Assembly (NCBI GenBank): GCA_030272155.1
Contig: CP126197.1
Coordinates: 6,006,001 to 6,070,000, forward strand
Direction: 5' to 3'
Length of the DNA stretch: 64,000 nucleotides
Source of the DNA: Tetradesmus obliquus
Lineage: Eukaryota > Chlorophyta > Chlorophyceae > Sphaeropleales > Scenedesmaceae
This document shows, one piece after another, positions 4,612 to 45,690 of the stretch. The position numbers and the translations under genes were made by a program. How positions within the stretch are numbered: position 1 is the first letter of the stretch; each line of letters opens with the position of its first letter. The notes beneath the pieces are model-generated. The model was not told the origin of the DNA, made no database searches, and saw only the letters and a program-made list of their open reading frames with translations.

Positions 4612-7600
4612 AGTGTGCGGCGCACCGCGCGCAACCTGGTGTTCATGTGCCTGGTGCTGCCGTGGTTTGTGGTGTGCTTCTGGACGCTGTGGTGCGACAC
4701 CGGCGGCTGCGAGCAGCAGGGAGAGTACAAGCGGGTGAGGCGCTTGTATGGTGGGCAGGGGCTGGGGGTCATCGTTTGAGGTGGCAGGCAGGCGCATCCG
4801 TGCAGCGTGTGCTGCATATACGTGCACAAGCAGACGTGCAGACGCCACTATAGCATCGCTGGGTGCTGCAGAAGCTCCTGTTGGCATGCCGGTGTTGCCT
4901 CTTCTGCGCCTGTCGGCTCCCGCCGCATCTTTGCAGCAGCCTGCACGTTGCTCACCCCCGCCTGACTGGTGGCTGGCTGCAAGTTCACTGTACAGTGTAC
5001 TGCAACAGTGCTTGTTGTCGTCACAACCGCTCACTCATCAACGCCTCCTGCCTCCTGCCCCTCCCCCTGTCCCCAGGCCACGGACATTGTGTGGAAGCTG
5101 CTGGTGTGCCTCACGCTGTTCAGCCTGGCCAACTTCCTCAAGAGCTTCGTGACCAAGCTGCTGTCCACACACTTCTACCGCACCGCGCACTTCAAGAAGG
5201 TCAAGGACGCCATGTGAGTGCTGCATGTGATTGAAGCGCACGGCAGCTACACCCTGTTGTTGTAGTTGTGTTTGCAACAGTGTCAGCAGCGCATGCAGTG
5301 CTGCCGCTGTTGAACCAGCTGCTGGACTCCCTTGCACACTGAAGTGCAGAAAGCCACACTAGACTGCTGTAGCACATAAGACACCGCGGCGACAGCCTGC
5401 AGGACCGTGCATGCAAGACCGTGCATCACCAGCGCATGTGTGTCTGGCTCTCTGCTGCCATGCCCCGCAGCGAGAAGGAGTACTACCTGCTGATGCTGAG
5501 CCAGCCGCGCCCCGCCAAGCCCGCCAGCGCAGCAACTGGCGAGCCTGGCCTGGCGCGCATGTCGCTGAGCAACCTGGTGGGATACTCATCAGCAGCGGCA
5601 GCAGCAGCAGCAGGCGGCGCAGACATGCTTGAGAAGCTGCGCCGCATCACGCTTGAGCGGGGCGAGGGCGAGGCCGGCAGTACTGGGCAGCATGCAGGCT
5701 TCAGGGAGCGGCTGCTGCATGGCAAGTCGTTCTCGACAACAGGTGAGGGGGTTGCTGCTGCTGGTGGGCTGGTGCAAGTGGAGGTGTGTGTGGTACAGCT
5801 GCTTTGGGGCTTGCAGAGCGCTGCTGCTTGGCCAGCCTGTGTTGGCGTCTGCTGTTGCCGGTGGTTGCAGCAGCCTTGTTGTAGAGCAGCACTGGCTTGG
5901 CACCCAGCTGAACGCAAGCTGCCCTGGAGAATGCTGCGCCGGCCGCGCCCATCTCATGCCTGCTGCTGACCCGCTGCCCTGCAGAGCTGGAGGCGCCTGC
6001 TGGCCCTGACCAGGCTGGCCTGCAGCCGCTGGCCTCAAAGTCGGTCAACTTCCCAGCAGCGGCAGCAGCAGCGCTCCCCGCTGAGCCAGCAGCAGCAGCA
6101 GCGCAGCCTGGCCGCGGGCGCAGCCGCATCTGGGGCAGCCGCAGCAGCCGCATGCAGCCCTGGCTGGAGGTGTCTGCCTCAGCAGGGTCAGGCTCTGTGG
6201 ACGCTGCTGCTGCTGCTGCAGTGGCGTCTGCAGACACTGCTGCTGCTGCTGCGCTGCCTGCTGGGTGGCAGGTGGCTGAGCGGCAGCAGGGCCTGGGGGC
6301 GGGCTCTGCTGCTCATGTGGAGCTGGTGGGGACGGCACCTGCCAAGGCCCAGCAGCAGCAGCAGCAGCAGCAGCTTGTTGCTGGGCAGGCGACTGCCGCG
6401 CCTGTGGCACGCAGGTAAGCGGCATGCAGGGGCCGCGGCAACAGTTTGCATGCTGCATTGCTGATCTGTCAGTTTCTTGTCGCCGATGTTGTGAGCTATG
6501 CGCATGTTGCTCGCGCAGAGCTTGACTTACAGCGAGTTCCTCATAGTTGCAAAGCTCATAGTTTTTGGTGGTGCTGACTTTGGCGATCTTCCTGCTGTGG
6601 CTGTCTGTTGCTGCGCTGTGCGCCTGCATGCATGCGTGCGCTGGAGGTGGGGCTGGTGGCGGCGCTCGGCCTCGCAGCAGGAGCAAATTTTGAGTGTTTT
6701 GCTGTGCTAATCATGGCAATGTGCTTGCGTTGCTGTCTGTCCCTGTGCGTGCTTGTGTCAGGTGGGGCTGGTGGCGGCGCTCAGCCTCGCAGCAGGAGCG
6801 GCTGCTGGACCCCCGCAGCGCCAGCTCAGCAGAGCAGCACGCCATCGCCATCCGCACAGGCTCCTCGCCACCCTCAGCTAATGCAGAAGCAGCAGCAGCA
6901 GCAGCGCAGCAGCAGGTGTCCTCACGTACTGGCAGTGTGGTGGGCAGCGGCAGCAGCCCCTTTGCTGGCAGTGCAGGCGGCATCCCGCTTGGCCCCGGCG
7001 CGCCAGTGCGCACCTTCACACAGGAGTCTGCCGGCGCAGCAGCAGCAGCAGCAGCTGGCAGCAGCGCAGCCACGCCGCGGGCCAGCATGGAGCGCTCCAA
7101 GCAGAGCGGCATGCTGCGGGGGTCAGCGGGTGGCAAGGGGGGCGGGCCTGGGCTGGGGCGCAGCGCGTCCATGGCTGCTGGTGGTGGTGGGGGGGGTGGG
7201 GGTGGGGGTGGTGGCAATGTGTCGAGTGACCCGCTGCTGCAGGCTGGCATGTTGGAGAAGGTCAACGTGCTGGGCAAGCAGGTGGGGGGGGGGGGGGGGG
7301 GGCTGGGAGTTACCTCCAGATCAGGGATGCTGGCTGTGTGCTGGTGGTTGGTGCGCCTGCAGTGCTGCCGTGCTGGACAAGCCGGTGGGGGGGAGGGGGG
7401 AGGGGAGAAACATCCAGATCATAGAGGCTGGCTGTGTGCTGCTGGTTGGTGTGCATGGACTAGGGCCAGATCAAGGGCTGCTGGCTGTGTGCTGCTGCGG
7501 GGTGGGGGTGCCTGTGGTTGCCTCACCAGAAAGAGATGCTGGTGGCAGGATGTTTGCACTGCCTGCTGCCACATACGACGTATAGCTGAGTCGCACAGCA

Positions 7601-10600
7601 CTGCAACACCTCCCCGCACCTTTGCTCTGCCACATAATCCTCCCATCCCCTTAGGTGGACACCAGCAGCATGCGCCCGGGCGAGTGGGAGCGGCTGCGCA
7701 CCGGCATCGCGCTCAAGACCTTCACCGCGCTCATGAAGCGCTACCAGCACATGAGCGCGGCGGAGGAGGCGGCCAAGCTGCGCGAGGCGCGGCGCTTCGC
7801 CAAGGTGGGGGCCGGGGGTAGATTTTGCAGCTTTGCATTGATGCTGTTAGGGTGTGCATAACGCAGTGGTGTGGGCTATTGACGTCTTGGTGCGCGTCCA
7901 CCCAGGTGCACATACAGCAGCTTGCATGGATTCTTTATGTTTAGTCTAGTGTCTGCATTGCTGGATAGCTGGCTGAGGTTGGTGCATGACACCCCCAGCG
8001 CCTGCAGCACTAACCGCGGCCTGCGTTCTTGCCCTGCCTGCTGGCCTGCCTTGTTGCTGCAGGGCCTGTTCTACAACGTCCGGGGCGATGCCAGCAGGTG
8101 CGGCCAGGGCTGTGGTGGCTCATGCATGCAGGGGCACCCACAGGCCAGGTCAACCTAGGGTGGCTGGAAGGGGGCAGGTGGCAGCTGCTGGCACCTCACC
8201 CAGCGACTGCTTCAGTGACAGCAGCAGCGTATGGCAGTGCCAGCTTGCTTGCATCATCATAGCATCATCGCAGTCCGCAGTTGACCACAAACAGATTAAT
8301 ACAGTCTGCTGGCGTCTTCACAACCAGCCCTTGCACCCAGCCATACCATCCACTGACTGCCGTGCCTGCGCCGCCCCCCCCCCCCCCCCCCCCCCCCCCC
8401 GCCCGCCCGCGCCGCGCAGGCCGTACCTGATTCGTGAGGACTTCAGCCCCTTCTTCGACTCAACCGCCATGGCCGACCAGGTGAGCCGCTGTGCATAGGT
8501 GAGCACGTGCGGCAGCGCCGTGCATGCTGCGTTGGTGATGGGCATGCAGCGCAGCCAGCAGGAAGCTGCCGCTGACACCCATCAGTCCCGGCAGTTTGCA
8601 CTCTTTGCTGCACACCAAGAAAGACCCGGCATGCAGAGTAGCAGTGAATAGCATAAGGAGAAGGACTGGTGCTATGCTTGCACTCGTTGCTGCGATTTTC
8701 AGTGATGATGAGCTACGTTCTCACTCTGCTACTACCTGCGATGCATGGCACAGTTGCAATGAATTGACTGTGGAAATGTGTGCCGTGTGTCTCGCTGCCA
8801 TGTGCAATTGCCCCCCCGCTGTGGCAGGCCTTCACTTACTTTGACAAGGACAACGACGCGCAGCTGACGGTGCGGGAGATGAAGGACAGCGTGGTCGCGG
8901 TCTTCAAGGAGCGCAAGAACATGGCGCACTCGCTCAAGGTGAGCCGGGGGTTCCAAGCAGCCTTGGAGCTTATGGTGTGGGCTGGACAGGGCCAGGTTCA
9001 TTTCCAAGGATGGCGGAGGGTGTCTGGCAGAAGCACGCCACGCAGGTGGCGGCAGCGGCGGCTGCATATGGGACGCTGCTTGCATGAACCAGCGGTGTGT
9101 CAAAAACTTTGCCAACAGCAGCAACAGCAGGCAATGCTGTGCAACAACTCCCTTGCGCATTGCATCTGCTGCTAGACAACTACATGTCACTGCTTGCTCA
9201 CCCCTGCCCCTGCAGGATACGCACAGCATCGTGGCCACGCTGGAGGCAGGCATCGGCTTCCTGTTCCACTTTGTGTTTGCGGCCATCTACCTGCTGGTGT
9301 GGGGCATGGACATCGTCAAGGGCTTCTCCACCTTCTCAGCAACAGTGCTGGCGCTCACCTTCGTGTTCGGCAACAGCGTGAGGTGCGCGGCATGTGGGAT
9401 GCATCAGATTGCAGTAGCATACAGATTGTTTGTGGTGCCGCTGTTGTGGTGCCTGTGTGCACTTGCATGATGGCGTGCTGCGCATACCCTTGGTTGCCCG
9501 TCACAGCACCAGCGCTTGCGTTCACCTTCGTGTTCGGCAACAGCGCAAGGTGTGTGTTCCGCCCACCGGTGGTGCGGGCGGCTGGCTGTTATGCTGTGCT
9601 CCGCACATCCTTGCTTGTCGGGCAGAGACTCGTTGAGACTCGGTGCCCTGACACTGCTGCCCTTCTCTGTGTGACTGCACGCACCTCCTGCTGCTTCCTC
9701 CTCGCGCCCCCTCCCCCTCCCCCCTTGGGCCCCATCTTCTGCCCCCCGCAGGCAGATCTACGAGTCCATGCTGTTCCTGTTTGTGGAGCACGCCTTTGAC
9801 GTGGGCGACCTGCTGGAGGTGGAGGCGGTGCAGTACAGGGTCAAGAAGATCGACCTGCAGTTCATAGTGAGTGACTGCCGGTGATAACATCCACATGCAG
9901 GGTCAAGAAGATCAACCTGCAGTTCATAGTGAGTGACTGCCGGTGATAACATCCACATGCAGGGTCCAGAAGATCGACCTGCAGTTCATAGAGAGTGACT
10001 GCCGGTGATAACATCCACATGCAGGGTCAAGAAGATCGACCTGCAGTTCATAGTGAGTGACTGCCGGTGATAATATCCACATGCAGGGTCAAGAAGATCG
10101 ACCTGCAGTTCATAGTGAGTGACTGCCGGTGATAATATCCACATGCAGGGTCAAGAAGATCGACCTGCAGTTTATAGTGAGTGACTGCCGGTGCTAACAT
10201 CCACATGCAGGGTCAAGAAGATCGACCTGCAGTTCATAGTGAGTGACTGCCGGTGATAATATCCACATGCAGGGTCCAGAAGATCGACCTGCAGTTCATA
10301 GTGAGTGACTGCCGGTGATAACATCCACATGCAGGGTCCAGAAGATCGACCTGCAGTTCATAGTGAGTGACTGCCGGTGATAACATCCACATGCAGGGTC
10401 CAGAAGATCGACCTGCAGTTCATAGTGAGTGACTGCCGGTGATAACATCCACATGCAGGGTCAAGAAGATCGACCTGCAGTTCATAGTGAGTGACTGCCG
10501 GTGATAACATCCACATGCAGGGTCAAGAAGATCGACCTGCAGTTCATAGTGAGTGACTGCCGGTGATAACATCCACATGCAGGGTCAAGAAGATTGATCT

Positions 10601-12214
10601 GCAGTTCATAGTAAGTGACTGCCGGTGATAACATCCACATGCAGGGTCAAGAAGATCGACCTGCAGTTCATAGTGAGTGACTGCCGGTGATAACATCCAC
10701 AGGCAGGGTCAAGAAGATCGACCTGCAGTTCATAGTGAGTGACTGCCGGTGATAACATCCACATGCAGGGTCCAGAAGATCGATCTGCAGTTCATAATGA
10801 GTGAGCGGGGATGCTGCAGGGCGACTGGTGTTCACTGACAGCAATATGATGTGCCTGTGCTGGTGACTTGTGTGAGCTGCCGACAAAATTGTTGAAGCTG
10901 CTGCGAGGACAATGCTGAGGGTGCGGCTTCATGTCGCAAACGCGCCCGTCCACCTGCTGTGCAGCGGCAGCAGCTGTGCATGTGTACAACACTTTCTGCC
11001 TGTCCATAACCGCCCCCCCCCCCCCAGGTGCTGGTCAAGTCCACAGGCGAGCGCGTATACTACCCCACCACGCGCCTCATCACGCTGCCCGTGATCAACC
11101 TCACGCGCTCCACGGCGCGCAGTGAGAAGGCGCTGTTCCTGCTGGACGTGGGGCGGGCTGCTGCCAGCGCGAGGGAGGCGCTGCTGGAGGCAGTGAGGGC
11201 CCACTACGCGGAGAATGAGAGCGACTTCAACAGCTGCCCCAGGTGAGGGAAAGGCACAAGGGTGTAGAAGGTGGGGGGTTGCATTGCTGCGGATGGCCAT
11301 GGGGCAGCTACGTCAACAGCTGCCCCAGGTGAGCTGGGGGCGACGGAAAGGGGAGACGCGACAGCTGCGGATGCCTGAGTACGAAATCTTCGTTCTGGCA
11401 CAGGCGGTGCGCCCTGCAGTGCTCCACCTGTACCTTGTGGTTTTGCAGCGTGCATGTTCCAGGGTTGGCTTCAAACATCACTCCTCTAAACATTTATGTT
11501 TTACTGACTGCTGCTGCCTGTTGTCTGCCTGTCTGCCCGCCTGCCTGCTGCCGCGCACAGTGTGAACTTTGTCACGCTGCTGGACCCCTTCAAAGTGCAG
11601 CTGAGCGTGGTGTGGACCTACAACTTCGGACGTGAGTGACCACACACACTGCTGCTGGCGTTGCAACTGCTTTCACTTACCAGCACTACACATTTTCAAC
11701 CAACTGTGCATTGAAGAAATCGAGTGCTGAAGTGAATTGACAGAGAGCATGTACGCAAGAACCGCCTGCCTCAACCCAAGTGCCTGAGGCAGTCAGCCGG
11801 CGTGAGGCCTGCTCCAGCTGCCCCTCTGACATCCACTGCCTGCCTCCTACTGCCTGCTGCACCCGCCCTTTCCGCCCCTCTTGCTTGCCACTGCCGCTGC
11901 CCCTCCCAGCCGAGGAGTTCAAGCGCACCAGCCAGGTCAAGACGGCGCTGCTGCAGGCCGTCAGCGACTGCCTGGGAGCACTGGAGCACCTGGAGTACAC
12001 GCTGGTGCGCAACAACGAGGGCCAGGGCCAGGGCGGCAGCGGCACCAACAGCAGCAGCAATGCAGCAGCAGCTGAGATGCTGGCCAGCGGTAGGACGGCG
12101 GGGCTGGGGGCGGGGCTGGGGGCAGGCATGGCGCCTGGCGTGCTGGGGCCAAATAGCGCTGCGGTGACTGGGGCGGCGGCTGTGGTGGGCGTGACGGGCC
12201 TGGCTGTGCTGTGA
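707..12214 (+). CDS. EF-hand MscS-like mechanosensitive ion channel (5' end unresolved)
   Basis: Channel gating ion flow on membrane tension; the EF-hand suggests Ca2+ control, as in fission yeast Msy1/Msy2. Eighteen exons join in phase: 707-1697, 1965-3259, 3665-3811, 4097-4245, 4614-4734, 5077-5213, 5471-5742, 5985-6414, 6762-7281, 7655-7804, 8063-8097, 8420-8480, 8828-8938, 9216-9382, 9752-9866, 11028-11242, 11561-11631, 11910-12214 (TGA), giving at least 1763 residues. Residues 1-762 are Gln-rich then Ala/Ser-rich low complexity with an acidic patch; four membrane helices lie at about 770-945; a low-complexity loop follows at 950-1350; an EF-hand (DKDNDAQLTVRE) lies at about 1441-1452; two more helices including the MscS pore region and beta domain (FVEHAFDVGDLLEVE) lie at 1480-1660. 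The first exon starts after an acceptor at 705-706; the first in-frame ATG is at 767, so upstream exons may exist. The Msy-like assignment rests on domain order (helices, EF-hand, MscS). Confidence 0.88.
4575..4610 (+). repeat. (CTG)12 directly before an acceptor
   Basis: Twelve CTG units run into the CAG acceptor of exon 5 of the channel gene (exon starts at 4614). The longest clean example of the CTG-before-acceptor arrangement. Confidence 0.95.
6645..6799 (+). repeat. Duplicated 3' splice site and exon start (channel exon 9)
   Basis: About 40 bp at 6645-6684 is repeated at 6760-6799 with few differences. The second copy is the true acceptor and first codons of exon 9; the first copy also has AG before GTGGGGCTGG. 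Offset 115 bp, not a multiple of three. Confidence 0.9.
7284..7302 (+). repeat. G19 run at the exon 9 donor
   Basis: The donor of channel exon 9 (CAG before GT at 7282) continues into 19 consecutive G. A poly-Gly coding stretch of G-rich triplets lies just upstream at about 7180-7215. Confidence 0.9.
8374..8400 (+). repeat. C27 run upstream of exon 12
   Basis: Twenty-seven consecutive C shortly before the acceptor at 8418-8419 of channel exon 12, acting as its pyrimidine tract. Confidence 0.95.
9351..9554 (+). repeat. Duplicated exon 14 end and donor (channel)
   Basis: The last coding bases of exon 14 plus donor (9351-9387, ending CAGCGTGAG then GTGCG) recur in the following intron at about 9518-9554 (ending CAGCGCAAG then GTGTG). 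Confidence 0.9.
9839..10796 (+). repeat. 62-bp minisatellite carrying an exon end and 5' splice site, 16 copies
   Basis: Units start at 9839 and then every 62 bp to 10769. The first unit is the genuine 3' end of exon 15 of the channel gene. Each unit holds a 28-nt exon-like piece (GGTCAAGAAG...TTCATA), then GTGAGTGACTGCC, then a tract ending CACATGCAG. So each unit offers a donor and an acceptor-like AG. Variants: GGTCC instead of GGTCA at 9963, 10273, 10335, 10397 and 10769; the donor GT is changed to GA in the 9963 unit and to AT in the last unit; the 10583 unit has GTAAGT. The period was checked against line coordinates. Confidence 0.97.
11225..11334 (+). repeat. Duplicated exon 16 end and donor (channel)
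   Basis: CAACAGCTGCCCCAGGTGAG occurs at the true exon 16 donor (within 11225-11247) and again at 11311-11334, offset 86 bp. Confidence 0.92.
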
Positions 12215-12311
12215 AGTGGTGAGTTGAGGCTGATGCCGCGGAGGCGGTGGTAAGGTTTGCACGTTCGCAGAATTTGTTGCTGTGTGTGTGACGGGCCTGG
12301 CTGTGCTGTGA
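12191..12311 (+). repeat. Duplicated stop-codon region (channel)
   Basis: The last seven codons plus TGA (12191-12214) are repeated exactly at 12288-12311, offset 97 bp, in the 3' UTR. Confidence 0.93.
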
Positions 12312-14195: not shown

Positions 14196-16143
14196 ATGGC
14201 ATGGGCGGTGAGTGTCAGAATGCACGGCATGCAGCAGGACGGCTGCGCAGGCATGAGTCGCACCTGTCTGCGACGGACGATCCAGCTACGATCTTTTCTT
14301 GTGCACTGATACCCAGCTTTTGAGTATCTGAAATTGTTTTTGTTTCACAAAATTACGTTATGGCCTTTTGGCGGCTGCCTCGGGCAGATCGACAAGCTTG
14401 TGGCGGGCACTGCTGGCAGGCAGAACCTGCTGCTGCAGCGGCACACCAGTGCCTCGACGACGGATATGCCTGAATAATAGTATTATTATAATACTGTGTT
14501 GTTGTTAATGTAGCAGAGACGTAGCTCATGAGCTGCTGCGCGGACTCTGCCCTCATGTATTTTCGTGTGTTGCCTGCTGTCTGCTGCAGGAGCTCACCTG
14601 GATTGTGGTCATCCACGGCATTGTGGCCTGGCTGGATGCCTACGGCATTGGAGGTGAGCCTTCCTGCTCTCGTGCCTGTTTTGATGCCCCCCACGGTGCA
14701 ACACAGCAGTTCCTGCGCATGACAGCTGTACAGCTGCACATGTCCGAGGCTGCCTGTTGAACATCTCCTGCATGCACTCAAGCTCATGGAATGCACAGGC
14801 GTGAAGTTGTAAGTGCATCAAAATGGCTGACAATGCAGCATTCATTGTGCTAGCCTGCACTCACCCACACACACGCACAACGCATCAACCTGGGCGCTGC
14901 TGCCATGCTTGTCCTCCGTTGCTGCTGTGCCTGCTGCTGCTGCCGCTGCTGCCGCAGCCAATGATGTGGCCAACTCCTTTGGCACAAGCGTGGGCAGCAA
15001 GACGCTCAAGCTGTGGAGCGCTGTGGTGAGTGGCTGCCCAGACTGAGGCCAGGCAACCACCCCCAGTGGGGTACAGCCCCCGGCTGCTGCATGAGTTGCA
15101 ACACCACACAGCACACTGTGACAGTGTCATGTGTTCCGCCGTCACGGCAATCAGCTTCTTGACACAACACAAGTGGATTGGCTGCTTACAGTTGTCAGCT
15201 GGAGGCTTTAGTTTGTGTGTTGCTGACTATCCAGTCGCCATTGCTACTGCTTCGCAGGTCATTGCTTCTATCTTCGAGTTCCTTGGAGCCATGCTGCTGG
15301 GTGGCCAGGTCACAAAAACCATTGCTGGCGGCATCGCCAAGACATCCACCTTTGCCAAGTTTCCGGCTCTCTTCGCTTTCGGTGAGGCGTGTGGAGCTCC
15401 GTGAATCTCTTCTCGGGGCGATGTGACTGCCTGGGCTTGCACTGCGTCCATGGCTTGAGCAGCCAGCACCCACCACCATTAAATGCTTGAAAGCTGCACA
15501 ACTCCTTGTCACAAGTTAGCCCTTGCGCAGCTCATGGCAGCTCCTATTCACAATCCTCCGCCTGCCCCTACCTGGCCGGCCCCATGCATGGCAATGCCTC
15601 CTCAGCCGGTGCTAGCCTTCAACCACCCATGTCGCTGACGATGCGCGCCTGTCTGCCCTGCATCCCACCCCACTCTGCCCCCTCACATCCCTCAGGCATG
15701 TTGACGGCTGAGACCGGCGCCATGATGTGGCTGCTGCTGGCCACCTACCTGGAGCTGCCTGTGTCCACCACGCACTCGATTGTTGGAGGCATCATCGGCT
15801 TTGCGCTGGCCTTTGGTGGCGGCAGCGCCGTGGTGTGGTACGAGCCCAAGGCAGACTTCCCATACATCAACGGCATCGTGCCGGTGAGTGCAGCCCCGCA
15901 GCCCCAGCTGCCTGCCCTGCTTGAAATGCCTGTCTGCTTGCCTGCTGCGCTTACGTCAATGGCATCGTGCCAGTGAGCGCGCCGTGGCGGCCAGCCTGCA
16001 TGGCTACCTGCTGGGCCGAGTGTGCCTAGAGTGTAAGCCTGTTGTGTTCGCCTGCCTGCCTGCTGGGCCGCGTGTGCAAGCTTGCCCTGTACACAGCTTC
16101 TGCCTCAGTACATGGCTGACCTGCCGCCACCGGTCGCCGCCGC

Positions 16144-16177
<34 letters not shown>

Positions 16178-18051
16178 GCAGATCGTCATCTCCTGGTTCC
16201 TGTCGCCCCTGGCTGCTGCGCTGATCGCGCTGATCATCTTTGTTGCCGTGCGCACTGTGGTGCTGCGCCGGCCCAACTCCACCAGCATGGCCTTCTACGT
16301 GCTGCCGGTGCTCATCCTGATCACCATCTGGGTCAACCTCTTCTTCATCTTGGTGAGCCCTCTATTAACATGTTAGCCTTTTTATTTCTGAATTCAAATT
16401 ATTGTTATATAAAATGTAAATATATTTCTGTAAAGCACTGCCCCACAGCTGGTGCCAGCATGCACTGCCTGGTGCCGATGGAGGCTGTGTGCGCGTATGC
16501 TGTCTCTGTGCACAGTCTAACAGAGCATGTCGTGGCGTGTTCCAAACCTTCGCAATCTGCACCACTTGCTGCCTCGCTCAGCCGGCCACAAGCCACTGAG
16601 CAGCGCCTGAGCTGCAGCTCGCCTCCCGCCCTCACACCTTGTGCTGCCGCCTGTGCTCCTCCCCCTCGCAGACCAAGGGCGTGCGCGGCATTGCAACCAT
16701 CGACATCAACCAAGCCGCCTGGATCGCCGCCGCTGCTGCCAGCGGCTGCGCCGTGCTGGGCTCTGCCGCGCTGTGGCCGCTTATGAAGCGCATGCTGCGC
16801 AACTACGATGCGGCACAGAACAGCCTGCCCTCCAAGGACGCCCAGGGCGCTGCTGCTGCTGCTGTTGATGTGGAGGAGGACGCCTTCCAGAAGGCCATTG
16901 AGAGGAAGCTGGCGCCAGTGGAGGTGGACCCCAACGACAAGTCGGTCAAGGCATACTTCAACCGCTTCAGGTGAGGGGAGAGGCTGCCGGTGGGTGCTAG
17001 TCAGTGCCTGCTGCTGATGCCTGATGTTGACGTTGCTGCTCCAGAAGCAACAGCCGAGCTTGTCGATCTCACTCACATCGTGCTGCTGATGCGGCGTGCC
17101 TCGCCCCGCTCTGGCGTGGCCTGCTTGCAGGAACATTGCGCTGTCTGGCATGACGCACGACATCCACGCCGACGTGCAGCAGGACGAGTCCATCATGGCC
17201 ATGCACGCCGATGCGGAGCGCTTTGACCCCCGCACAGAGGAGGTGTTCAAGATCCTGCAGGTATGCTGGCGGGTGAATGACTGCTGTTGACACTGAAAGA
17301 GATCGCAATCAGGTGCATACAAGCAGGCTGGTGGTACATCCTGTTGTGGGGCAGGCTGCAAATGCCTCTGAACGGCACAGTGGCCTGCTGGGCGGTGGCT
17401 GCGCCATGGATTCTACTGCCTAGGTGCACAGCAGCTTGCACTGCAGACGCTGCTTGCACGCCGCCCGCATCGCATGGAAGAGATGCAGCCAGCGCTTGCA
17501 GAGTACCGTGACGACACAGATCGCTGCTTCTGCCGAGGCTGCCGCTGCTGGCTGCATCTGCTGTGCTGCAGGTCATCACCGCATGCGCCATGTCCTTCGC
17601 GCACGGCGCCAACGATGTGGCCAATGCCATCGGCACCTTTGCCGCCACCTACTACGTGTACCAGAACTACACCGTGCCCGGCTCCAACAGCAACGTGTAC
17701 CCCTGGTGAGGCACCCGCAGAGGTCTACTAGAACTAGCCTATTAGGCTTCACTATCCAAGCTGGCCATGTTGCAGCTGCAATTATGCTTGTCCTGGAGCC
17801 AGCTGGTGCTAGTAGTGCACCCCTGGTGAGGCCACGCACGGCTTCCTCGGAGCCAGCCAGTGCTCGCGAGTGGCGTGCCTGCCTGGCATGCTGCGGGGTG
17901 GCAGCTCTTACGACTGCGCACAGTCCTCGTGCTGCATTGGCTGCTGCTGACCAATATGCCGTGTGCATGGCTGTTGTGTCCAGCCACTCAGCCATTAGGT
18001 CACCCGCCAGCCAGTATGCTGACTGTCAGTGACACCTGCCTGCCTGCCTGG

Positions 18052-18097
<46 letters not shown>

Positions 18098-19648
18098 ACA
18101 GGATCCTGGCCATCGGAGGCACAGGCATTGTGGTGGGCCTGGCAACATACGGTGCGTGCCAGGTCGATCACGCTGCTGTACAGCACGGAATGTGATGGAA
18201 CATTGCAGGAATGCGCTGTTCACCTTGAAACAAGCAGCGCCATGCAACCAGATAATCACGCCGCACGTTGGAGAGCTATGCTCGTTTGTGGTGTTGGTGT
18301 TCAGTGGCTGCATATGGATTACCAAAAACGTGCGTCACCCTGCTGCTGCTGCTGCTGCTGCTGCTGTCCTGCAGGCTACAACATCATGCGCGTGCTGGGC
18401 GTCAAGTGCACCCACATCACGCCCAGCCGCGGCTTTGCCATGGAGCTGTCCACCAGCTTCGTCATCGCAGTCGGCTCAGCCTTCGGTGAGTGCCGGCCGC
18501 TAGCTTTAATTCAAACCTGAAATCTAAGCAGGCATAAGGCCAGGCCGTCATTGCAGTCGGCTCAGCCCTCGGTGAGGCGCGGCTGCACAGCCCAGGCCTG
18601 ATGCAGCCATACGAGACCTGTCCTTGTTCTTTTCAAAACCACACACGGAGGAGCATAGGCTCAAGCAGGCTTGCCTGCTTCTGATGCGTAGGACTTGTAA
18701 CTCATGCAGCCAGGCCTGATGCATCTGCTTGTCTCTGCTTGTCACGTGAATGCTACCGCACTACTAACTGCGAGCCGTGTTACCAGCGGCATGCATGTAC
18801 TGCTGAGCCGGGCATATGCTTTGGCCCGGTTGTCAAAAGAGAGCTGTGCTGACTCTGTGTTGCGCTGTCGTGCACCCACCTCCCCCCCCCCTCCCTGCAG
18901 GCCTGCCGCTGTCCACCACGCACACCATCACTGGCGCCACCGCTGGTGGAGGCATTGCTGAGGGCCGCGCCAAGGCCATCAACTGGATGCTGTACGCCAA
19001 GATGTTTGGCGGCTGGTGAGCAGCGCAGCACCGCCTGCAGGAGGAGGTAGCTGCATGGCATCGCGCGTGCATGTGCATGTGCGTGCTCTGTTTGCTCCAT
19101 GCTGCCAGCGTGCGGCACAACCACAGGAGACCGTGACGTGGGCTCGCTTTGACATCTGCAATGGTTTCACAGCTGACCAGGTGGCAGTGAGGATTTGCTT
19201 GGACTGTACTGTGCTCCTCACTATAAACAGCTTAGGCCAGCCTTGTGCCATTCCATGCACTGCCATGCGGCTCACGGTTTTGCATGTGCCGTGCCTTTCC
19301 TCCTCCCCCCGCAGGGTGTTCACGCTGATCATCGCCGCAGCCATCTCCGCGGTGCTGTTCCTGATGGGCACGCACTCCCCCAGCCAGCCCGACCAGCAGC
19401 AGCTGATCATGTACCAGAACCTGCTGCTGCAGCAGAGCAACAGCTCGCTGCGCTTCCTCAACACAAGCAACAACGCGCTGCCCACACCCAGCGCGGGCCT
19501 GGCCGCCAATGTGAGCAGCCTGGGCAATGCCACCGCCAAGCTGCTGGCCAGCAAGGCCTGGCTGGATGGCAATGCAGTGGCGGCCAACTTCAAGAATGTC
19601 AACTTGCTGCTGGGCAACAACACCGAGTTTGCGGTGGCTGGGCCTTGA
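14196..19648 (+). CDS. PHO4-family phosphate transporter (PTB/PiT type)
   Basis: Imports inorganic phosphate, probably with Na+ or H+, across the plasma membrane. Thirteen exons in phase: 14196-14207, 14590-14653, 14958-15025, 15258-15381, 15696-15883, 16182-16352, 16672-16970, 17131-17260, 17572-17705, 18102-18151, 18375-18485, 18901-19015, 19315-19648 (TGA), giving 599 residues. The family's inverted duplication is visible: [10 protein letters not shown] (about residue 25) with STTHSIVGG, and [11 protein letters not shown] (about 361) with STTHTITG. About ten hydrophobic helices flank a hydrophilic loop at about 250-350; the C-terminal tail is Asn/Ser-rich. The start is inferred: a 12-nt exon (ATGGCATGGGCG, then GTGAGT) gives MAWA-ELTWIVV, matching the short N-terminus of this family. 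Na+ versus H+ coupling cannot be read here; PTB in Chlamydomonas is the closest family I know. Confidence 0.93.
14462..14469. promoter_or_regulatory. P1BS-like site in intron 1 of the phosphate transporter
   Basis: GGATATGC fits the PHR1/PSR1 binding consensus GNATATNC. It lies in the first intron about 260 bp after the start codon. With six fixed positions the pattern is expected by chance about once per 4 kb, so it is only suggestive. Confidence 0.25.
15861..15980 (+). repeat. Duplicated exon 5 end and donor (phosphate transporter)
   Basis: The exon end and donor at 15861-15890 (GGCATCGTGCCGGTGAGT) recur at 15951-15980 (GGCATCGTGCCAGTGAGC) in the next intron. Confidence 0.9.
17697..17835 (+). 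repeat. Duplicated exon 9 end and donor (phosphate transporter)
   Basis: ACCCCTGGTGAGGC at the true donor (17697-17715) recurs at 17817-17835, offset exactly 120 bp. Confidence 0.8.
18035..18097 (+). repeat. (CCTG)n tetranucleotide tract at an acceptor
   Basis: About 15 CCTG units with one interruption, directly before the CTACAG acceptor of transporter exon 10 (exon starts at 18102). Confidence 0.95.
18461..18582 (+). repeat. Duplicated exon 11 end and donor (phosphate transporter)
   Basis: The exon end and donor at 18461-18496 (GCAGTCGGCTCAGCCTTCGG) recur at 18547-18582 (GCAGTCGGCTCAGCCCTCGG), offset 86 bp. Confidence 0.92.
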
Positions 19649-31503: not shown

Positions 31504-33054
31504 CGCGCATCATGGCCTCACTCTCCTCACGGCTGGGCGGCACCCAGCGGCCCCCCACAATGTTCATCCACGGCCGCGGCGCCGCCACCTGCTGCTGCTG
31601 CTGCTGCCCGCCATCATGCTTCTTGCGGTAGCTGGGGTCAGCAGGCAGGCTGGAGGTAGCTGAAGCAGTGCCTGGCTCTGCTGCAGCAGCAGTTGAAGAT
31701 GATGATGCACTGCCAGCGGCTGCTGCGGATGTGGCAGCTTCCTGCTGCTGGCCCCGGCTGCTGCTTGGCTCGTCAGCCCAGTCGATGACCTCTGTGCTGT
31801 CCACTGAGTGCATTGCATCATTGCACAGCGGGCTGTCAGGGCGGCACAGCGCATCATCTGCATCGGCACCCTCATAGCCGCCAGGGGGCAGCAGGGAGTC
31901 CTCATACGTGTCCACGGAGTGGATTGCGTCTCTGCCTGCATTGCTGGCACTGCTGTCGGCTGCTGCTGCTGCTACTACTGGGCCACGACTGCTGCTGCTT
32001 CGTTGTGCAGACCAGTCGATAATTTCAGTGCTGTCCACTGAGTGCCCAGGGTCCTCGCAAAGAGGGCTGTCAGGCCGGCACAGCGCGTCATCTGCAGCGT
32101 CAGCACCCTCATAACCGCCAGGGGGCAGCAGGGAGTCTTCATAGGTGTCCACAGAATGTGCTGCATGGCCAGCTGGCATGCCAGCACTGCTGCCCGAGCC
32201 TGCTGCTGCTGCTGTGGTGCTGCTTTTGCTGCTGCCAAAGCCCTGGTTTGGCTGGCTGCTCCAGTCCTGCACCTCTGTGCTGTCCACAGAATGCCCTGGG
32301 TCCTCACACAGTGGGCTGTCAGGGCGGCACAGCGCATCATCAGCATCGGCACCCTCATAGCCGCCAGGGGGCAGCAGGGAGTCCTCATACGTGTCTACAG
32401 AGTGGGTTGCATCCTTGGCTGCAGAGCGGTTGCTGGCGCTGGCAGCTGCTGCTGCCGCCCGGGTGCTGCTGGTGCTGCCCTGCCCAGCCTCCCGCTCCCA
32501 GTTGATGACCTCTGTGCTGTCCACTGAGTGCCCTGGGTCCTCACACAGAGGGCTGTCAGGCCGGCACAGCGCGTCATCTGCAGCGTCAGCACCCTCATAG
32601 CCGCCAGGGGGCAGCAGGGAGTCCTCATACGTGTCGACAGAATGTGCGGCATTGCTGCACACAGGAGCAGTGACAGTACAAACGGGAGCAGTCAAAGGGT
32701 GTATATTGTAACCAAGCTGGATCAATGTATCAGATGATGAAACTGTCACCAGCATTGCAGCAAATCACACAGGCCGCACCACAAGCAGCCAGCCGCACCA
32801 CAAGCAGCCAGCCCCGACGCAGTAAGGAAGCTGTACAGAAGCAAGCACTGCAGCTGCATCATGCTGGCCTGCCACACCGACTCAGCTGGCCCATGCGGCA
32901 GCTGGTGAGCAGGCCACCCTGTGCCCACCTGTTCCCGCCAGCCCCGCCTGCAGCAGCAGCAGCGGCAACTCTGCGCTGCTGCTGCCTGCTGCTGGTGGTC
33001 CCAGGGAGCCAGCCAGCCCTGCACATGCTGCCACCCCAAGCGACGGGGTTCATT

Positions 33055-44517: not shown

Positions 44518-45690
44518 AGCTGCGCTTGTAGTTGCTGCACTGCAGCCTGAGCAGCAACGGCCTGCGCTGCCTGCTGCTGCTGTTGCTGCTGTGACAGGGC
44601 CGCTGCGGCTGCTGCTTGCTGCTGCTGCTCCTGCAGCTGTTGCATGATGGCTGCGTGCTGGTCGAAGCCCAGCCTGCAGGCACAAGCAGTACATCAGCCG
44701 CCGACGCAACACACCTCAGTGCCAGGGATAATCGCAGCACGCTCTGCTTGATCAACTGCAGCCATTGCACCAGCACATGATGCTAGCAACACCACGTATT
44801 CAAATAACATGCCATACAGTCGCATGCAATGCACTGGCATGCAGGGTGTCATGTAACAGCCTCAGGGCGGCCCCGTGTGCTGCCGCGATGCTCACCCCGG
44901 TGCTGCTGCTGGTGGGTCTATCTTGCGCACAAACAGCCAGTTGTTCACGTTGCCCAGCGGGTCGGGCATGTATGGCGCGGTCTCGTCGTGCATCCACTTG
45001 CCGTCCACTATGAACTTGTACTGGTGGTAGCTGCGGGCGCAACAACACAGCAGCACAGCAGCAACAACACAAACACACAGCAACACACAGCAACAGAGGC
45101 GTCAGTGGCTGCCGGCTGGCAGACATCAGCAGCACAACAGCCAGGCGCATGTGTGCCGGTGCTGTGCTGATGGGGAGGCCGGAACAGGCCTGTACACTGC
45201 GGCCATCCCTGCAGCCAGCTGGATCTGGCAGGCACTGGCAGGCACGGGTTGCAGCTGCGCGAGAGTCCTCAGCCTGCACCGGGCCCAGCATTGCGCCCCG
45301 CAGCGCCAGCGCCCTGCACGGCGCGGCACACGCTGCAGCACAGCTGGCTGCGCAGCAAGAGGCAAGCACACCAACCGCCCAGGGCCTGCACCGGGCCCAG
45401 CACTGCGCCCCGCAGCGCCAGCGCCCTGCACGGCGCGGCACACGCTGCAGCACAGCTGGCTGCGCAGCAAGACGCAAGCACACCAACCGCCCAGGGCCTG
45501 CACCGGGCCCAGCACTGCGCCCCGCAGCGCCAGCGCCCTAGCCTTGCCCCCAAGGCACTGCTGCACGGCCAGGCTGCTGCCTGCCCTGCTGGCGCCTGCC
45601 ACGGCAGCAGAGCAGCTGCTATGCTGTGCAATGCGAGCACTGTCATCTGTGTATTAAGGTTGCATCTGTTGCAATAAACACGCCTAAAGC

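Follow-up and report, generated by a model that had tools for sequence, protein, structure and literature searches.

A 62-bp minisatellite repeating a splice donor in an MscS-like channel gene of Tetradesmus obliquus, and recurrent exon-edge copies in sampled introns

How can a gene carry, within a single intron, a long series of copies of its own splice donor, and where did these copies come from? The question is raised by a 62-bp minisatellite in an MscS-like (MSL) channel gene of the green alga Tetradesmus obliquus. The gene lies in the 64,000-nucleotide stretch analysed here (contig CP126197.1 of assembly GCA_030272155.1, positions 6,006,001–6,070,000 of the forward strand), which is referred to as the window and in whose coordinates positions are given unless another contig is named. 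We consider it likely, with a probability of roughly 80%, that the array is the result of an ordinary tandem duplication across an exon end and the start of the following intron, tolerated by splicing from the first donor to the last acceptor. The order of events, the neutrality and instability of the array and this splicing rule are what we infer from the observations below.

The array was identified by Tandem Repeats Finder (TRF) as 15.6 copies with 97% matches and a score of 1812, the highest in the window. Its unit is composed of the end of the upstream exon, the donor and a 23-nt filler. The features of the locus are as follows.

9752–9866, forward strand: channel exon, the last 28–31 nt of which are repeated in the array (open frame QIYESM...DLQFI, gapless homologues, our own gene finder)
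9836–10804, forward strand: 62-bp array of 15 full units and 39 nt of a 16th (TRF, unit table)
9867–9872, forward strand: first donor, GTGAGT, predicted from homology to be the one used
9929, 10053, 10115, 10177, 10239, 10301, 10363, 10425, 10487, 10549, 10673 and 10735, forward strand: identical donor 9-mers
10611, 9991 and 10797, forward strand: variant or lost donors (GTAAGT, GA and AT, respectively)
10805–11027, forward strand: remaining 223 nt of the array-bearing intron, with a C-tract and the real acceptor AG (11026–11027)
11028–11242, forward strand: next channel exon, in frame with 9866 (open frame, homologues)

The initial annotation described a minisatellite of sixteen copies, each combining an exon end with the adjoining 5' splice site. 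The unit anatomy supports this description, the sixteenth copy being partial, and with it a tandem duplication across the two elements. Read unit by unit from 9836, full units 1–15 differ from the consensus by 0–3 nt each, and the 39 recognisable nucleotides of unit 16, which extend to 10804, contain three substitutions. A GT is kept in 14 of the 16 units, close to the number of competing donors that had been proposed, and 13 units share an identical donor 9-mer. The donor reads GTGAGT in these 13 units and GTAAGT in unit 13; the losses described for an internal unit (GA, unit 3) and for the last one (AT, unit 16) are both present. Variants recur between units: position 8 of the unit is C in units 3, 8, 9, 10 and 16, and position 53 is T in units 4, 5 and 7. 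Such sharing would be expected of an array enlarged through exchange or slippage. Change has not avoided the donor hexamer in comparison with other parts of the unit: of the 15 differences among units 2–15, two fall within these six of the 62 positions. No origin of the filler elsewhere in the genome was found by a pattern search, in which a 25-nt pattern holding the filler gave 15 genome matches with up to three mismatches, all within the array. A 1101-base query was found in at least one place in the genome. Searches with filler and exon-edge queries found no near-identical sequence at many unlinked places, the hallmark sought of an introner (mobile intron family), and Rfam gave no matches in the window.

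The junction at the array is supported by homology. Joining 9752–9866 to 11028–11242 produces a single open frame, and plant MSL10 (from the PDB) aligns gaplessly across it with an E value of 1.8e-10, which agrees with the annotated use of the donor at 9867 and the acceptor AG at 11026–11027. Flycatcher1 matches over the same stretch as MSL10, with equal lengths on both sides. Algal homologues, including Monoraphidium, Gonium, an entry labelled Chrzof1 (presumably Chromochloris) and others, also cross the junction without gaps, and many of them carry the PF00924 domain. The gene is identified as an MSL channel on the basis of the MSL10 match and these PF00924-bearing homologues; four further places in the genome match the domain. 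Taken by themselves, these hits point to a chlorophyte alga, probably a member of the Sphaeropleales. The array-bearing intron is 1161 nt long and is reduced to 231 nt by subtraction of 15 × 62 nt. This length is normal here (the median is 243 nt for the 288 introns of 100 nt or longer in the first two samples described below, and 222.5 nt for the 292 pooled introns in which no copy was counted), and the intron therefore most likely predates the array.

Read-through past the first donor runs into a TGA at the sixth retained codon (14 later units tested), inclusion of one 28-nt microexon shifts the frame and inclusion of two creates a TAG, all as annotated. The further claim that the first donor alone keeps the frame stands for read-through and for the 28-nt paths and fails for a 6-nt microexon (CTGCAG/TTCATA/GT), which would also keep it; the AG of this microexon is weak, at the 6th–10th percentile in the three units scored. 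The frames and the gapless homologues thus support the proposed need to pick the first among 14 GT donors. Splice sites were scored with a weight matrix learned from 375 predicted introns, with percentiles taken relative to predicted sites. The 13 identical donors are at the 21st percentile and the GTAAGT donor at the 4.5th. As the 13 donors are letter-identical, the donor sequence itself does not single out the first. The internal acceptors of the array are poor: the unit CAG is at the 12th–13th percentile in 14 of the 16 units and at the 3rd in two, and the real acceptor at the 36th. The GT-to-AG span inside one unit is 34 nt.

These properties are best explained by the following course of events. 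The 3' end of one coding exon, together with the first part of an already existing intron of normal length, would have been duplicated in tandem. This would have placed a duplicate downstream of the original donor, where it would then have expanded to about 15.6 copies. While the spliceosome takes the first, exon-attached donor, whether by exon definition or by an oriented 5'-to-3' choice, the mature mRNA would be unchanged. The array, with its 13 further GT donors (12 identical to the first), would be an intronic by-product, probably an extreme and neutral one. The process would be common in this genome: tandem duplications, often of about 100–140 bp, would build up inside genes, those within exons tending to be purged and those over a donor or an acceptor surviving because the outermost sites are used. 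Decay of the intronic part of a duplication would leave a recognizable exon-edge copy in the intron.

Such exon-edge copies recur in the sampled regions, forming a wider pattern of which the channel array is the largest expansion. The samples comprise the window, 200 kb of contig C1 and 50 kb of contig C12 (314 kb in total); they were chosen arbitrarily, and the rates apply to these regions and are not a genome-wide estimate. Genes were modelled with a two-strand hidden-Markov gene finder with a minimum intron length, trained on the window and the 200 kb of C1. Every intron of at least 100 nt was searched for copies of the exon edges on either side of it (queries of 45 exon bases plus 10 intron bases) by ungapped scans (+1/−2) with a score cutoff of 20, low-complexity segments being dropped. 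A copy is present in 46 of the 288 introns of the window and C1 (27 donor-side, 26 acceptor-side). Run on a single intron of another gene or on the reverse complement, these queries gave 0/288 per side in each case, and an intron-interior query (one per intron) gave 5/229. The window contributes four of 102 introns in two of 11 genes and C1 contributes 42 of 186 introns in 20 of 42 genes. On the held-out 50 kb of C12, with the finder frozen, 12 of 52 introns contain a copy; the other-intron control gave 0/52 per side and the reverse-complement control 0/52 on the donor side, the only side covered. In nine of the 46 introns, fewer than 50 nt of intron remain once the copy is discounted, and the underlying model is often doubtful. 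A conservative count that omits them is 37/288 for the window and C1 and 48/340 for all three samples. Over five iterations of the finder the conservative rate was 17–19% in C1 and moved from 5/55 to 4/102 in the window.

The copies are concentrated in long introns. Their prevalence is 0/117 at 100–200 nt, 5/116 at 200–300 nt, 16/58 at 300–400 nt, 12/23 at 400–500 nt and 15/26 above 500 nt, such that 27 of the 49 introns longer than 400 nt keep one. In the conservative set the median length of copy-bearing introns is 453.5 nt, compared with 222.5 nt for the others (Mann–Whitney p = 1.6e-18), and falls to 255 nt when one spacing per side is subtracted (p = 0.049 versus the others). Some of this trend is inherent in the comparison, because an intron is made longer by the copy it holds and must be large enough to hold one. 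The spacing between original and copy is 86–378 nt in 30 donor cases and 93–246 nt in 26 acceptor cases (score of at least 18, 288-intron set); among repeat clusters of all kinds, the commonest spacing is 100–139 nt (42 of 103). The spacings have no frame bias, with remainders 0/1/2 after division by three of 33/37/33 in the 103 clusters and 14/18/12 in the 44 rows that leave at least 50 nt of intron. The GT is retained in 23 of the 30 donor copies and the AG in 19 of the 26 acceptor copies, doubtful models included, and the copied stretches are 84–100% identical to their originals, many below 95%. Most copies are single; two or more are found in 15 of 55 copy sets (counted at 75% identity), of which the channel array, with 15, is the largest.

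Homology suggests that the mRNAs are spliced at the outermost sites, from the first donor to the last acceptor. In the channel gene and four of 18 listed copy-bearing C1 genes, which were picked by eye and together hold 14 copy-bearing introns, joining of the outer sites gives a gapless homologue crossing in 11. Three of these are channel introns, two supported by alignment and the third by eye. The others belong to a ClpP-like gene (two), a starch-branching-enzyme-like gene (three), a gene related to PDB entry 2ekm (one) and a protein kinase gene (two, the alignment having a one-residue gap five residues from the first supported junction). One supported intron of the ClpP-like gene has both an acceptor-side copy and a donor-side array that closely resembles that of the channel gene.

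C1:1019320–1019859: ClpP-like array L003, 118 bp, 4.6 copies, 98% match, built on an exon end with its donor

Homology is undecided in the remaining three introns, namely channel introns 6 and 7 and a kinase intron located inside a repeated exon. At this kinase locus (L008, C1:1066346–1066858), a 63-nt exon is repeated in a 183-bp array, and the finder read four copies of VDAW(A/V)MGVLLYLLVTGTYPFE; the aligned kinase structure holds one. Splicing either selects one of these four near-identical exons or passes over the additional copies. The finder also predicted exons at copies in the branching-enzyme gene, where they are visible as insertions relative to the structure. Site strength alone does not explain the choice, since the copied site scores as well as or better than the used site in nine of 24 donor pairs and eight of 20 acceptor pairs.

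The channel gene itself has further copies. When its 13 modelled introns were compared with their own exon edges, one was found to contain a copied exon start with its AG and two, besides the array-bearing intron, a copied exon end with its donor; a segment scan located an additional copy in the intron after 11242. Together with other instances in the window, these are as follows.

9504–9552, forward strand: decayed single copy of the preceding exon end and donor (9337–9385), spacing 167 nt, in the intron just upstream
11306–11333, forward strand: copy of an exon end and donor (11220–11247), spacing 86 nt, in the intron just downstream
6645–6684, forward strand: copy of an exon start and acceptor AG (original 6760–6799), spacing 115 nt, 39/40 identical, in an upstream channel intron
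7369–7399, forward strand: weaker copy of an exon end and donor (7266–7296), spacing 103 nt, partly a G-run and the least certain
18546–18576, forward strand: copy of an exon end and donor (18460–18490), spacing 86 nt, in the neighbouring gene
45272–45539, reverse strand: 112-bp array, 2.4 copies, 98% match, across a predicted exon and intron

Homologues run gaplessly through FGNSVR/QIYES, the channel junction of the intron that holds the copy at 9504–9552. Joining 11242 to 11561 gives FNSCPSVNF, as in homologue P0009 in a comparison by eye; the copy at 11306–11333 is outside the 48 counted introns because the finder called part of it an exon. The copy at 6645–6684 was missed by one scan owing to the ungapped scoring and removal of low-complexity segments, and that at 7369–7399 scores 19, under the cutoff of 20. 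The last coding bases and stop codon of the channel model (12191–12214) are also copied 97 nt downstream at 12288–12311 with 24/24 identity, as though this kind of duplication extends to coding-region ends. The neighbouring gene (14196–19648), which holds one exon-edge copy, resembles a PHO4-type phosphate transporter when its translation is read by eye. Elsewhere in the window, a 237-bp repeat of 3.7 copies (31777–32652, reverse strand) is located wholly in predicted coding sequence and, as 237 = 3 × 79, is probably a protein repeat.

The closest precedent for the channel array, by analogy, is intron 7 of human factor VII (F7). According to PMC6627357, every 37-bp repeat of this intron has a 5' splice site, of which the most upstream alone is normally used, a choice ascribed to oriented scanning. 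The channel array likewise starts at the donor predicted to be used and repeats it in highly similar units, 14 of 16 of which keep the GT. It differs from F7 in its 62-bp unit, in the frame-breaking effect of read-through and in belonging to a pattern that extends to many genes and to acceptors.

Several observations weigh against duplication followed by outermost-site splicing as a full account. The gene models come from our own finder. Since hand-built channel exons were among its seeds, alongside long open reading frames, its return of 13 of the 14 hand-built exons is not independent. The homology comparison is confined to the 14 introns described above. Copied sites are weaker on average than used ones (mean scores of 5.60 versus 7.23 for 24 donor pairs, p = 0.0007, and 3.95 versus 6.33 for 20 acceptor pairs, p = 0.016), so position need not be the sole cue. 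None of the other copies scoring at least 18 has a spacing below 86 nt, a minimum that the 62-bp period of the channel array undercuts. The copied exon end (9858–9866) encodes QFI, whereas M-x-T is found in nine of the 14 homologues that cover this site (M in 10 and T in 13), and the exon end may itself have been altered, possibly rewritten when the array formed. Purging of exon-only duplications is likely and is partly borne out, in one size class: among arrays with periods of 90–150 bp, 0 of 25 are exon-only compared with 4.7 expected (as low in 11 of 2000 draws). For the 34 genic arrays taken together, the deficit (three versus 6.0; 252 of 2000 as low) is not significant, and there is one exon-only array among the 17 best preserved versus 3.2 expected (270 of 2000). 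Finally, at the level of individual segments, 50 of 65 copies in C1 cross an exon–intron border compared with 26.2 ± 3.7 when shifted, a value reached in none of 2000 shifts, and one is intron-only versus 11.6 expected.

This last excess, together with the C1 arrays with periods of at least 40 bp, 17 of 24 of which overlap a border (10.1 ± 2.6 expected from whole-sequence shifts), is what would be predicted if a process aimed at borders, for example R-loop breaks or splicing-coupled repair, made the copies and borders were hot spots. We regard such a process as improbable. When whole arrays with periods of at least 60 bp (36 in the 314 kb, 34 of them not purely intergenic) were shifted within genes, 27 of 34 span a border compared with 25.0 expected, as do 15 of the 17 best preserved compared with 12.3 (216 of 2000 as high), and intron-only arrays are not scarce (three versus 3.1). 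Whole arrays are thus placed at random within genes, and in our view the segment-level excess mainly reflects the intronic halves of copies having decayed. Such one-sided decay predicts part of it; asymmetric decay may not wholly explain the excess in C1. The window has no significant excess either at segment level (six of nine versus 4.3, 278 of 2000 as high) or for arrays (two of four versus 2.7).

Equally hard to favour is a regulatory role, in which the donors titrate U1 or yield controllable frame-broken mRNAs subject to nonsense-mediated decay, with copy number tuning the channel. The 13 letter-identical donors and the stop at the sixth codon in 14/14 tested read-through products would suit such a decoy or switch, and mutation of the first-repeat donor in factor VII activates downstream donors (PMC6627357). 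The dedicated function suggested by the initial annotation is, however, unsupported: similar copies occur in introns of other genes, the unit acceptors are weak (12th–13th percentile or lower), the first four units have an unremarkable predicted RNA fold (z = −0.49), and two of the 16 donors are already lost from an unspared hexamer.

Still less probable is birth of the intron itself by tandem genomic duplication, for which PMC3443670 and PMC4974935 give examples from several species and which would likewise begin with duplication of exonic sequence beside splice sites. The model, described by Rogers in 1989 and illustrated by ATP2A1 (Hellsten, 2011) and by 24-bp repeats in fission yeast (PMC4974935), involves an AGGT-containing segment. 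The channel array resembles these introns, particularly the multi-copy case of fission yeast, in that duplicated exonic sequence ends up spliced out. However, the AGGT segment ascribed to it by the initial annotation is absent (no AGGT within 9836–10803), its repeat does not supply both donor and acceptor, and the acceptor at 11026–11027 and 223 nt of intron are outside the array. Removal of the 15 extra periods leaves an ordinary intron of 231 nt, and copy-bearing introns in general reduce to near-normal length, which leaves the proposed intron birth without support. In the potato RdRp gene, a tandem duplication across an exon–intron boundary created a new intron (PMC4974935); the channel array shares the crossing of a boundary, which brings splice signals along, but seems to lengthen an existing intron. 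Internal gene duplication (Gao and Lynch, 2009, as cited in PMC3443670 and PMC4974935) is similarly a within-gene event and differs, as described there, from the partial-exon copies counted here inside introns with their decoy sites kept. Multiplication of the copies by the assembler is the most remote explanation, since, although the copy number of a 97% identical array was read from one assembly, the units bear a structured set of common variants, copies elsewhere are 84–100% identical with many below 95%, and the pattern is present on three contigs.

Tandem duplication hidden by outermost-site splicing thus remains our preferred explanation. The 13 letter-identical donors in one intron constitute a natural experiment in which site strength cannot explain which donor is used, and the paired used and ignored sites elsewhere, several equally strong, would allow exon definition to be tested in algae. 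Such copies put automated annotation at risk: our own finder called some of them exons. The wider pattern of border copies matters more than the array alone. A literature search, with most subscription papers outside its reach, found no report of widespread exon-edge copies in algal introns, which is weak evidence of novelty. According to PMC8226300, Chlamydomonas and its relatives have strikingly long introns without the usual peak at 60–110 nt, for a reason described there as unknown. Splicing-hidden duplication across splice borders is a concrete and testable contributor to such lengths. A bolder proposal, that introns of this algal lineage grow chiefly by border duplications of about 100–140 nt and that a strict two-sided outermost-site rule ignores many intact decoys, is tentative and on balance doubtful; if true, growth by border duplication would go some way towards accounting for the length of introns in chlorophycean algae, which are long.

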